Shown one piece after another: positions 56,827 to 60,528 of a DNA stretch of 64,000 bases. The DNA comes from Bacteroidia bacterium (GTDB lineage: Bacteria > Bacteroidota > Bacteroidia > Chitinophagales > Chitinophagaceae). The notes beneath the pieces were generated by a model. The model was not told where the DNA came from, did not search any database, and was given only the letters and a program-made list of their open reading frames with translations. How positions within the stretch are numbered: the stretch's first letter is position 1; the number at the start of each line of letters is the position of its first letter. Position numbers and translations under genes: made by a program. The DNA is taken from positions 124,001 to 188,000 of the forward strand of contig JAUICZ010000004.1 in assembly GCA_030429205.1 (NCBI GenBank), given 5' to 3'.

Positions 56827-57009
56827 ATGAAAAAAGTATTCTCTTTGGCGATATTCGCCTTATCGTTAATGGCCATCACAACATCTTGCAATAAAGATTA
56901 TACATGCGAGTGCGATAATGGTTCTTACAGTCAAATTATTGCTGCCAACTCACAATCAGATGCATCTGCAGAATGTGAGACAAAAGGCGATGATTGTATT
57001 GTTAAATAA
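56827..57009 (+). CDS. Small Cys-rich lipoprotein (family copy 1)
   Basis: 60 residues. The signal peptide ends in a lipobox (TTSC, lipidated C21). The mature part, SCNKDYTCECDNGSY onward, holds four more cysteines: a C-x-C pair (27, 29), then ASAEC and DDC near the end. The protein encoded at 60294-60500 has the same layout, SC-x-KD-aromatic-x-C-x-C ... EAS/ASA ... C ... G-D/E-DC, so the two are paralogues. Similar KDYTCEC-type lipoproteins are, to my knowledge, frequent and uncharacterised in Bacteroidota. It lies 14 bases after the barrel-like gene. Confidence 0.75.
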   Translation: MKKVFSLAIFALSLMAITTSCNKDYTCECDNGSYSQIIAANSQSDASAECETKGDDCIVK

Positions 57010-57024
57010 CTAGACCTAACCTGA

Positions 57025-59394
57025 TTAGAATGTATACCTAACCATAGGCACGGGGAAGAACCCTTGCTGAAAGTTAGAGTATACCGTATTTCTACGCGGG
57101 TCGTAGCTTTGGCTGAATATATTTTTGTTATTAGTAACATTCTGTAAGTCAATAGAGGCTTCAAGCGTGCTATTCTTATATTCTTTGCGGTAGCTTATTT
57201 TAAAGTCTATCCTGAAGTAATTATTCTGCTTAACAGAGAAGGCTTGTGATCTGTCAAATACAGCACGGCCTTCCAGTTGAGACTGCTGCAGATCAATCGG
57301 AGTAAAATACCTTCCCCCTACAGTAGCGGCTTTAATGTTCAGCGATAAAATATTGTTACCATTTTTAGTGATATTGAACTCTTTACCGGCTAGTACATTC
57401 AGTACATAACCTGTATTAAACGCTGTATTGCGCTCTATACCATCACTGCCTTTATACTTACTATCGAATAACGAGCTGGTAATAAGAAAATAGTAGTTAT
57501 CGCTAAAGAACTTCTCTATTGTTATTTCTACACCATAGTTTCTACCCGTTCCGTTATTTACTAAACTATCTTGCCTGTCCGGCACAAAACTGGCGCCACT
57601 GTTCAGTGCAGAGTATGAGCTAGACCTTTGCTCCACAGGTACATTGTACAAGTCTTGATAGTACCCCTCGGCAATCAATCGAATATTACGTCCTACATTC
57701 CAGTTATAGGTTAGTACATATTGATTACTGCTGGTAAAACCCAGGTTCTTATTCGTTAACGCTACTCCTGTTGCTGTATATGTTTGCACGTAGTAAGTGT
57801 ATATACTCTGTATTTGATTGTTAAGCCCATAGCCTGCGCTAACAGAATGCTTAGGTGATACTTTATATTTAAGATTTACACGAGGCTCTATTGCAGAAGT
57901 GTTATTCATAAACAAATACTGCCCGTGTGCACCTGCTACAAATAATAGCTTTTTGTTGAAACGATGCTTCCATTGCAAGTATACCTGCCCTAATCCAAAA
58001 TCTCCCTGTTGGTCAACTACTGTTTGACGTACCACACCTTTATCTACATTTAGGTTATACAAGTCTAGCATGGTGTGATCGTAAAAGACACCTGCACGGA
58101 TACTGTTTTTTGCATTGAATTTATGAGCCAGCGTAAATACGGTTGATACCTTTTGCGTGTTGTAGTCACCTTCAGCAGCCGGCAATACAATACTCCTATC
58201 TATATAACTAATAGAGTCAGCAGTAAACCCTTCGGAGGTAGTACTGTAACCCAGCGTAAGTTCTGCTGTAGTTTTTTCAGAGATATTGTGTTTGTAAGAC
58301 AAGCCTGTTACGGTAGTAGAGTATGTGGTCAATACATTCTGATAAGCGTCACCATATAAATTTGCTTCACTGGTATCTACATCATCACCCAGCAAGTCTA
58401 TTTTACTGGTACCGGCCAAACCAAACAATGTTAACTCCCCTTTTTTACCTATTGCTGTGGTAAAATTATAGTTCACATCCTGATATATAGGTAAAGACGC
58501 ACCGGTACCAAAGTTGATACCCAATGCCTGAAACACCCCTAAAGTAGAATATCTGTAGTTAACTAAGTATGACGATTTCGTTTTCTTGCTGATCGGGCCT
58601 TCTGCACCTAACTCGAAACCGTTAAAACCTACCTGCCCTACAAACTCATGGTGCTCTTTATTACCATCTCTCATACGCAAATCAAAAACACCTGCTAATG
58701 CATTACCATATTGTGCGGGGTAAGCACTGGTTAAAAAATCTGATTTATCCAGGTTATTATTATTAAGCATACTTACAGGACCTCCTGTACTATTTAATGC
58801 TCCAAAATGGTTAGGGTTAGGAATGTTCAAACCATTTAAGCGCCACAACATACCATTAGGCGAGTTTCCTCTTACCACTATATCATTTCTACTATCGTTA
58901 CCTGATACTACACCTGCAAAGTTCGATGCCATACGGGAAGGGTCTCCTATAGCTCCTGCATATTTTTTTGTATCCCCTACATTAAAAGATCTGGAACTTA
59001 CCATCGCCATATCATTGTTGGTACGGTTACGATCTCGGGAAAGATCATACCTCACGGTAGCCTCCTCAAGCGTCTTAATGTCTTCTGTAAGTTCTACATT
59101 CAGTCCCACTTCTTTTCCGGCTGTTACTATAATGTCCGGTAATAACACCTCTTCATACCCTGCATAACTAATCTTGACAGACTGCCTGCCGATAGGCACT
59201 CTTTCTAGCCTAAAGTTTCCATATTCATCAGTTGCTGTACCTATTGTGGGGTTGCTCACTAATATAACAGTAGCACCAATTAGCGGAGACCTGGAGGCTT
59301 CATCTGTTACCGTACCGAATATTGTTTGAGTTTGTTGTGCAAATGCAAATACACAAGACAGCAATAAGCTCAAAGTGAAAAGAGTATTCTTCAT
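57025..59394 (-). CDS. TonB-dependent outer-membrane receptor
   Basis: 789 residues. A signal peptide spans 1-19. A carboxypeptidase-regulatory-like domain (about 23-105: IFGTVTDEASRSPLIGATVI, YGNFRLERVPIGRQS) is followed by the plug (about 130-240: VVRGNSPNGMLWRLNGLNIP, SAYPAQYGNALAGVFDLRMR) and a 22-strand-type barrel ending PVPMVRYTF. No SusD partner is adjacent, so it is not a classical polysaccharide-utilisation pair. Substrate unknown; iron or metal complexes, vitamins and oligomers are all possible. Two perfect TTGAT-N4-ATCAA palindromes lie upstream, next to the gene for a Crp/Fnr-family regulator on the same strand, so regulated expression is likely. Confidence 0.93.
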   Translation of the reverse strand: MKNTLFTLSLLLSCVFAFAQQTQTIFGTVTDEASRSPLIGATVILVSNPTIGTATDEYGNFRLERVPIGRQSVKISYAGYEEVLLPDIIVTAGKEVGLNVELTEDIKTLEEATVRYDLSRDRNRTNNDMAMVSSRSFNVGDTKKYAGAIGDPSRMASNFAGVVSGNDSRNDIVVRGNSPNGMLWRLNGLNIPNPNHFGALNSTGGPVSMLNNNNLDKSDFLTSAYPAQYGNALAGVFDLRMRDGNKEHHEFVGQVGFNGFELGAEGPISKKTKSSYLVNYRYSTLGVFQALGINFGTGASLPIYQDVNYNFTTAIGKKGELTLFGLAGTSKIDLLGDDVDTSEANLYGDAYQNVLTTYSTTVTGLSYKHNISEKTTAELTLGYSTTSEGFTADSISYIDRSIVLPAAEGDYNTQKVSTVFTLAHKFNAKNSIRAGVFYDHTMLDLYNLNVDKGVVRQTVVDQQGDFGLGQVYLQWKHRFNKKLLFVAGAHGQYLFMNNTSAIEPRVNLKYKVSPKHSVSAGYGLNNQIQSIYTYYVQTYTATGVALTNKNLGFTSSNQYVLTYNWNVGRNIRLIAEGYYQDLYNVPVEQRSSSYSALNSGASFVPDRQDSLVNNGTGRNYGVEITIEKFFSDNYYFLITSSLFDSKYKGSDGIERNTAFNTGYVLNVLAGKEFNITKNGNNILSLNIKAATVGGRYFTPIDLQQSQLEGRAVFDRSQAFSVKQNNYFRIDFKISYRKEYKNSTLEASIDLQNVTNNKNIFSQSYDPRRNTVYSNFQQGFFPVPMVRYTF

Positions 59395-59414
59395 GTTCTT
59401 TTTTTATGATGCTG

Positions 59415-59422
59415 CAAAGATG
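59415..59422 (-). promoter_or_regulatory. Near-consensus -7 element (CATCTTTG) of the TonB-dependent receptor
   Basis: One mismatch from TANNTTTG, 20 bases before the ATG at 59394. With transcription starting near 59410, the first palindrome would be centred near -41.5, the class II activator position. Confidence 0.45.
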
Positions 59423-59444
59423 CAACCTCATTTCAAAAAAGTTA

Positions 59445-59458
59445 TTGATCTAAATCAA
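59445..59458. promoter_or_regulatory. FNR-type palindrome 1 (TTGATCTAAATCAA)
   Basis: Exact match to the TTGAT-N4-ATCAA consensus, in the 85-base gap between the regulator gene and the receptor gene. The symmetry extends one further base pair outward (A/T). Confidence 0.7.
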
Positions 59459-59479
59459 TAAAAAAACTGTTTAAAAGAT

Positions 59480-60103
59480 TTATTGATCCTGATCAACCAA
59501 AACATTTCCGTTGCCATTATTTCTTCGGGCACGTATCCTGCTCAAGGCTTCCGGAGTAACACCAATGTAAGATGCGATCATATATTGAGGTATACGTTGC
59601 ACTATTGATTCACATTGTTCTAAAAATTTCTCATATCGTTTTTCCGGCCCGTCAAATTGAAAATCATAGTTCCTATTAGATAGCTCTATAAAAAGGTTTT
59701 CTGCTATAAGCCTTCCAATCTTCTCACAGTCATGATATGTACTATAGAGTTCTTGCAGATTGTTATAGTCTATATCTACAACCACGGTGTCTTCTAAGGC
59801 ATCGGTATACATCCTTACCGGCTGTTGTGTTAAGAAACTTTCGTAGTCAGAAAAATAAGAATTAGTATCTGCGAAAGCCGTTATCACCTCTTTCCCATCT
59901 ATTAAAAAATAGCTCCTCAACAAACCCGAGCATATGTACGACACATAGTTACATACTACACCTGGCTTGTATACTACTTCTCCTTTTTTGTATTTGTGTA
60001 TTATAACTCGTTTAGCAAACTCATTCCAGGCTTCTTCAGACAAGTCCGGCAATAACTCCAACAAAAACGATTTAATTATAGATAATGCATCTTCTCTATT
60101 CAT
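59480..60103 (-). CDS. Crp/Fnr-family transcriptional regulator
   Basis: 207 residues. The N-terminal cyclic-nucleotide-binding-type beta-roll (about 25-115, with YKKGEVVYKPG and SGLLRSYFLIDGKEV) and the dimer helix (about 117-145) lead to a helix-turn-helix (about 170-195). The recognition helix reads TPEALSRIRAR, keeping the E185-x-x-S188-R189 pattern that FNR uses to read TTGAT half-sites. The N-terminal cysteine cluster that binds Fe-S in FNR is absent (cysteines only at 51, 58, 126 and 164), so oxygen sensing by that route is not expected; the ligand is unknown. The second palindrome overlaps its last codons. Confidence 0.92.
   Translation of the reverse strand: MNREDALSIIKSFLLELLPDLSEEAWNEFAKRVIIHKYKKGEVVYKPGVVCNYVSYICSGLLRSYFLIDGKEVITAFADTNSYFSDYESFLTQQPVRMYTDALEDTVVVDIDYNNLQELYSTYHDCEKIGRLIAENLFIELSNRNYDFQFDGPEKRYEKFLEQCESIVQRIPQYMIASYIGVTPEALSRIRARRNNGNGNVLVDQDQ
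59483..59496. promoter_or_regulatory. FNR-type palindrome 2 (TTGATCCTGATCAA)
   Basis: A second exact TTGAT-N4-ATCAA match, centred 38 bp from the first and lying within the last codons of the regulator gene. From the receptor promoter it would be centred near -80. Confidence 0.6.
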
Positions 60104-60293: not shown

Positions 60294-60500
60294 ATGAAAA
60301 AACTATTATTATTATCAGTAGTTGCTGTAACAGCTTTCAGCTTCTCATCTTGTAAAAAAGACTGGTTATGTAAGTGTACTGACAACACTACAGGCGCTAC
60401 AGATGAGTGGCAATTAGGTAACATGAGACGCCCTGAGGCTTCTTTAGCTTGTGATGCTTACGAAGTTTATGGCGAAGATTGTTCTTTAGAAAAAGGATAG
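60294..60500 (+). CDS. Small Cys-rich lipoprotein (family copy 2)
   Basis: 68 residues. The signal peptide ends in a lipobox (FSSC, lipidated C20). The mature part SCKKDWLCKCTDNTTG shows the same KD-aromatic-x-C-x-C motif as the protein at 56827-57009, followed by EASLAC and GEDC near the end. The four mature-part cysteines could form disulfides or bind metal; neither is proven. It stands alone, divergent from the Crp/Fnr regulator gene (190-base gap) and closed by a strong terminator. Function unknown. Confidence 0.75.
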   Translation: MKKLLLLSVVAVTAFSFSSCKKDWLCKCTDNTTGATDEWQLGNMRRPEASLACDAYEVYGEDCSLEKG

Positions 60501-60528
60501 TCAACCTAAAAAACTCAACGTTTTTTTT

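Follow-up and report, generated by a model that had tools for sequence, protein, structure and literature searches.

What does a Crp/Fnr-type regulator gene control when it stands directly before the gene for a TonB-dependent receptor, with two FNR-type palindromes where the genes meet? The window considered here, a 64,000-nucleotide stretch of DNA from a member of the Bacteroidia, carries on its minus strand the regulator gene (59480..60103, read from 60103 to 59480; 207 amino acids) followed, after a gap of 85 bp, by the receptor gene (57025..59394, read from 59394 to 57025; 789 amino acids), the putative single target. The receptor has a Plug domain (PF07715, 24.5 bits versus a cut-off of 23.9) in addition to a CarboxypepD_reg domain, and these two domains make it a probable TonB-dependent receptor. 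By inspection, the gene neighborhood beyond the regulator/receptor pair varies among orthologues.

The regulator belongs to the Crp/Fnr superfamily without fitting its classical members. Its N-terminal part contains a cNMP_binding domain (PF00027, 45 bits versus a Pfam cut-off of 27.5; E value, 1.1e-11), and the nearest solved relative is the cyclic nucleotide binding regulatory protein 3dn7. No Pfam helix-turn-helix model scored above threshold, and the presence of a C-terminal helix-turn-helix is indicated by the 3dn7 alignment, which extends through the recognition helix TPEALSRIRAR, and by the invariance of S188 and R189 in 16 orthologues. E185, S188, and R189 lie in this helix where the original prediction had placed them, and the predicted lack of an FNR-type Fe-S cluster at the N terminus also holds, as the only four cysteines (positions 51, 58, 126, and 164) form none. 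Scores were far below cut-off for both the NCBIfam Fnr model (26 bits versus 228) and the CRP equivalog (22.1 bits versus 266). Read by eye, the phosphate-binding cassette is YFSDYESFLTQQPVRMY, lacking the GEL..RSA pattern, and the pocket does not look suited to cAMP; heme is a possibility as ligand, by analogy with PgRsp and HcpR only. The E-x-x-S-R motif was considered as a hallmark of the regulator and rejected: the window's own genome encodes 14 PF00027 (Crp/Fnr) proteins, most of which carry it, so that E-x-x-S-R alone cannot single the regulator out.

TTGAT-N4-ATCAA has exactly two matches in the window, TTGATCTAAATCAA at 59445..59458 (proximal) and TTGATCCTGATCAA at 59483..59496 (distal), with centers 38 bp apart, at the coordinates and spacing first reported. 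Dinucleotide shuffles yield a mean of 0.09 matches per window; two matches never occurred in 100 of them. The two palindromes had been placed between the genes, which is correct for the proximal one, but the distal palindrome overlaps the last codons of the regulator gene, where it encodes ..VDQDQ ahead of the stop codon at 59480-59482. Another reading takes the palindromes for RNA hairpins, which would terminate the regulator transcript or signal processing, rather than for operators; in its favor, the minus strand reads TTATTGATTTAGATCAATAA followed by CTTTTTT, resembling a weak terminator. Orthologous sites, however, show no consistent T-tracts, many of them are asymmetric (e.g., TTGATCCAGGTTAA), their position is tied to the promoter box described below and not to the regulator stop codon, and they remain where the regulator gene lies elsewhere (L079 and L085). 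The hairpin explanation is rejected as having a negligible chance of being right.

The promoter supports reading the palindromes as operators. A −7 box, CATCTTTG, lies at 59415..59422 on the minus strand and follows the consensus TAnnTTTG except for the T at −12. The Flavobacterium TAnnTTTG box spans −12 to −5 (PMC9723704), which puts the predicted transcription start at 59410. Seventeen loci were measured, a set that includes altered, single, and unlinked arrangements and leaves out the distant members L088 and L090; in all 17, the distance between the center of the proximal palindrome and the beginning of the xAnnTTTG box is exactly 29.5 bp. Since the box occupies −12 to −5, this distance sets the proximal center at −41.5, which would be a class II activator position, and the distal center falls at about −79.5; these values agree with the −41.5 from a start near 59410 and the second site near −80 that had been proposed. 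The T at −12 is missing from the box in 16 of the 17 loci, as expected if the promoter needs help.

The same regulator and sites could act in the opposite direction, with protein occupying about −48 to −35 and −86 to −73 and blocking polymerase until a ligand releases it. The data on sites and reader fit either sign of regulation, and a protein on the proximal site would cover the −33 region as well. Repression is nevertheless unlikely: shifts would be tolerated at a repressor site, whereas the −41.5 placement is exact at all 17 loci measured and the −7 box is weak, with no T at −12, as would suit an activator obliged to contact polymerase. Under the preferred reading, the regulator would be a local activator of a single promoter, that of the downstream receptor gene. 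As a dimer, switched by a ligand in the pocket of the cNMP domain, it would bind the proximal palindrome at −41.5, replace the missing −33 element, and recruit RNA polymerase to the weak −7 box; another dimer, at −79.5, may tune the promoter. It is from sequence that we infer binding, activation, the role of the distal site, and the existence of a ligand.

The distal site is the less uniform part of this layout. It lies 37 or 38 bp upstream of the proximal site in most related loci, which is a separation of ~3.5 helical turns and an unusual phase for cooperation, a point that counts against the explanation. At L081 (genome G125), the sites upstream of the receptor are 27 bp apart, closer by about one helical turn, which hints at a role for the phase of the two sites. 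L086 lacks the distal site, L079 and L085 retain the proximal site only, and L088 and L090 fit the two-site layout in part. The deviations at L081, L086, L088, and L090 also weigh against the explanation.

Conservation of the sites was followed at receptor loci of relatives. A receptor search over 399 genomes of the family delimited a subfamily of about 30 members (≥49% identity), and the upstream regions of the best 30 were read; a further group of receptors, at about 42% identity, was set apart as a different subfamily outside the analysis. Palindromes of the form TTRAYYNNRRTYAA were present at 16 of 17 loci with the regulator directly upstream and at 2 of 13 without it (Fisher P = 1.5e-5), and in the genomes of these two (G420 and G290), a regulator orthologue with 51 to 53% identity is encoded elsewhere. 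Tabulated per genome, sites versus regulator orthologue gave 18/0/1/11: all 18 genomes with sites have the orthologue, and of the 12 genomes with a site-less receptor, 11 have no close orthologue and 1 (G377) has one. Little weight should be put on a single absence, as not every genome is complete (79% for G074). In this exception, the G377 regulator has E185 replaced by Q, and in the same place its genome has altered twin palindromes, TTAACC-N2-GGTTCA, spaced 38 bp start to start. A DNA-only search of the 399 genomes for two palindromes with 21 to 26 bp between them found 13 places, 12 of which are the receptor locus, and its reversed control found 0. The remaining match (L104 in G114) precedes a large lipoprotein gene and may be due to chance, as no Crp/Fnr gene is nearby. 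Regulator identity and receptor identity were correlated (r = 0.93 over 120 pairs), as expected if the two proteins are inherited as a pair. The expectation that palindromes and recognition helix would persist together is thus borne out on both sides: site pairs are kept with the regulator in other genera, and a change in the helix goes with a change in the sites.

These patterns bear on whether the adjacent regulator is the reader at all. The palindromes might instead be read by a different Crp/Fnr paralogue, for instance the longer FNR-like proteins of L001 or L002, with the adjacent regulator serving otherwise, a proposal that gains from the number of paralogues sharing E-x-x-S-R in the genome. 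It is very improbable, however, because the sites come and go with the orthologue of this regulator although site-less genomes have paralogues too, the sites are altered where this regulator has Q in place of E185, and other paralogues possess sites of their own.

The relationship between residue 185 and the half-site base extends beyond the receptor loci. With E at this position, at least one half-site is TTGA in 41 of 43 circuits; with P, Q, or I, both half-sites are TTAA in 12 of 12 (totals added by hand over two sets of loci). Residue 189 is also changed in the two exceptions with E (L201 and L259). In a tree built without the helix, the residue label changes five times, three of them on well-supported branches, and nearly always in step with the site; with only three to five independent changes (three independent pairs), a phylogeny-corrected test falls short of significance. 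The rule itself is not new, having been described for HcpR and related proteins, including that of Porphyromonas gingivalis (Rodionov et al. 2005, PMC1274295), and it serves here as evidence that each regulator would read its neighboring site. In the receptor circuit, Glu185 would read the G of the TTGAT half-sites.

How far does control by the regulator reach? The whole 3.64-Mb genome holds 10 exact TTGAT-N4-ATCAA sites, versus 4 for a control pattern, and the eight beyond the pair are scattered, seven within open reading frames and one (L020) between them. The pattern TTGAYYNNRRTYAA gave 7/8 matches genome-wide versus 10/9 for its control. A genome-wide FNR-type regulon was rejected on these counts. 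The scan for further sites, which the original prediction had proposed as a check, therefore leaves the receptor promoter alone as the predicted regulon, as the twin-site motif has no excess of matches over its control in the rest of the genome.

The circuit is conserved and self-contained, as had been supposed, but it is not singular, since the same design recurs beside many Crp/Fnr genes. Other Crp/Fnr genes that were inspected show the same site spacing before unrelated genes. Across 150 relatives, palindrome-N22-xAnnTTTG had 72 matches; reversing the pattern gave 15, and changing the spacing to N20 gave 17. A Crp/Fnr gene occurred within the fetched locus (about 3 to 3.6 kb) for 37 of 71 distinct matches and for 0 of 17 in the N20 control (P = 4e-5); in 28 of the 37 it is directly upstream in tandem, its stop codon mostly no more than 40 bp from the match. 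It counts against the explanation that a Crp/Fnr neighbor is absent from half of the pattern matches. Among Crp/Fnr loci picked through the protein and not through the DNA pattern, the histogram of gaps peaked at 22 (n = 8 loci, four of them relatives of the window's own regulator).

With the pattern slightly relaxed, the genome of the window itself had nine matches, versus one for the control, and seven of the nine adjoin Crp/Fnr paralogues. Loci L256 to L263 have six other Crp/Fnr paralogues near a palindrome with the same −41.5 spacing, the downstream genes including NAD-dependent epimerase-like and dehydrogenase-like genes. A perfect TTGACTTAAGTCAA with the same spacing (L238/L261, C4:2283440-2283483) precedes a DUF4386 gene in a locus containing no Crp/Fnr gene; at L229, a DUF4386 gene is the target beside a regulator. 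Targets elsewhere are diverse and include DinB-like, YCII-like, zinc-binding dehydrogenase, alpha/beta hydrolase, cupin, beta-lactamase-fold, small multidrug transporter, and DUF4386 proteins. Sampling across the phylum gave a match in 88 of 396 genomes, and 13 of the 25 loci examined have the adjacent regulator. At two of these 13 (L272 and L283, from other families of the class), a Crp/Fnr gene lies near or directly before a receptor-like gene having a CarboxypepD_reg-like N terminus, and the site is spaced in the same way, which suggests that receptors recur as targets.

The sites, their spacing and conservation, their co-occurrence with the regulator, and the residue/base correlation are computed observations. 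The explanation that best accommodates them combines a local, ligand-switched class II activator, a tuning dimer at the distal site, reading of the half-sites by Glu185, and membership of the receptor circuit in a widespread set of Bacteroidota Crp/Fnr one-promoter circuits with a common −41.5 geometry. We consider this explanation quite probable as a whole. What the first reading of the locus observed was real, and its interpretation was largely right.

Among known systems, FNR/DNR-type class II activators (TTGATnnnnATCAA, centered at −41.5) share the TTGAT half-site, the E-x-x-S-R helix, the 14-bp palindrome, and the class II position. They differ in that the protein here is short (207 amino acids) and has no Fe-S cluster cysteines, the promoter is of the Bacteroidota −7 type instead of −10/−35, and the regulator adjoins one predicted target instead of governing a regulon. 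HcpR/HcpR2 of Bacteroides and P. gingivalis, predicted to control hcp only (PMC1274295), are likewise local, single-target Crp/Fnr regulators of Bacteroidota and follow the same residue rule (Glu to Pro/Gln with half-site G to A), but their target is hcp and their signal nitric oxide through heme, in contrast to a TonB-dependent receptor with twin sites. PgRsp of P. gingivalis, a CooA-like heme binder linked to iron/heme (PMC6955866), is another Bacteroidota Crp/Fnr-superfamily regulator outside the classical families; its heme binding sets it apart from the regulator here, for which heme is only a possible ligand. 3dn7 has the same short architecture and a TPEYLSEIR-type helix but is a structure without assigned function or sites.

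A literature search, incomplete in coverage, found no description of the regulator/twin-site/receptor architecture. The regulator is of a known kind; what is new is how widely the plan occurs and how it fits the Bacteroidota promoter. It seems rather likely that one-promoter Crp/Fnr circuits form a large set in the Bacteroidota, most of it undescribed, in which a palindrome at exactly −41.5 of the neighbor's −7 promoter often overlaps the regulator's own stop codon and the residue-to-base rule predicts the pairs; the receptor circuit would be a twin-site member that places an outer-membrane receptor under a dedicated sensor. Bacteroidota genomes encode many short Crp/Fnr regulators without known targets or signals. 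The geometry of a 14-bp palindrome, 22 bp, and xAnnTTTG assigns a target promoter to roughly half of such regulators in the window's own genome, extends to other classes of the phylum, and suggests that a Crp/Fnr activator serves the unusual Bacteroidota promoter from −41.5, as in Escherichia coli. Finding signals becomes practical, as the adjacent gene indicates the pathway and a ~100-bp reporter could be used in a ligand screen.

A search of named genomes returned only regulators with 32 to 43% identity, and those inspected (Chitinophaga, Glaciecola, and an unclassified MAG) had no receptor neighbor. In the record titled Glaciecola amylolytica (L059), a Bacteroidota-type Crp/Fnr gene adjoins a dehydrogenase gene with a −7-type promoter; as the record is named for a gammaproteobacterium, this reflects either gene transfer or a mislabeled record. 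In the window, the regulator/receptor pair is flanked by two similar-looking genes for small cysteine-rich lipoproteins, at 56828-57007 and 60294-60501 on the plus strand, which contain ..SCNKDYTCEC.. and ..SCKKDWLCKC...
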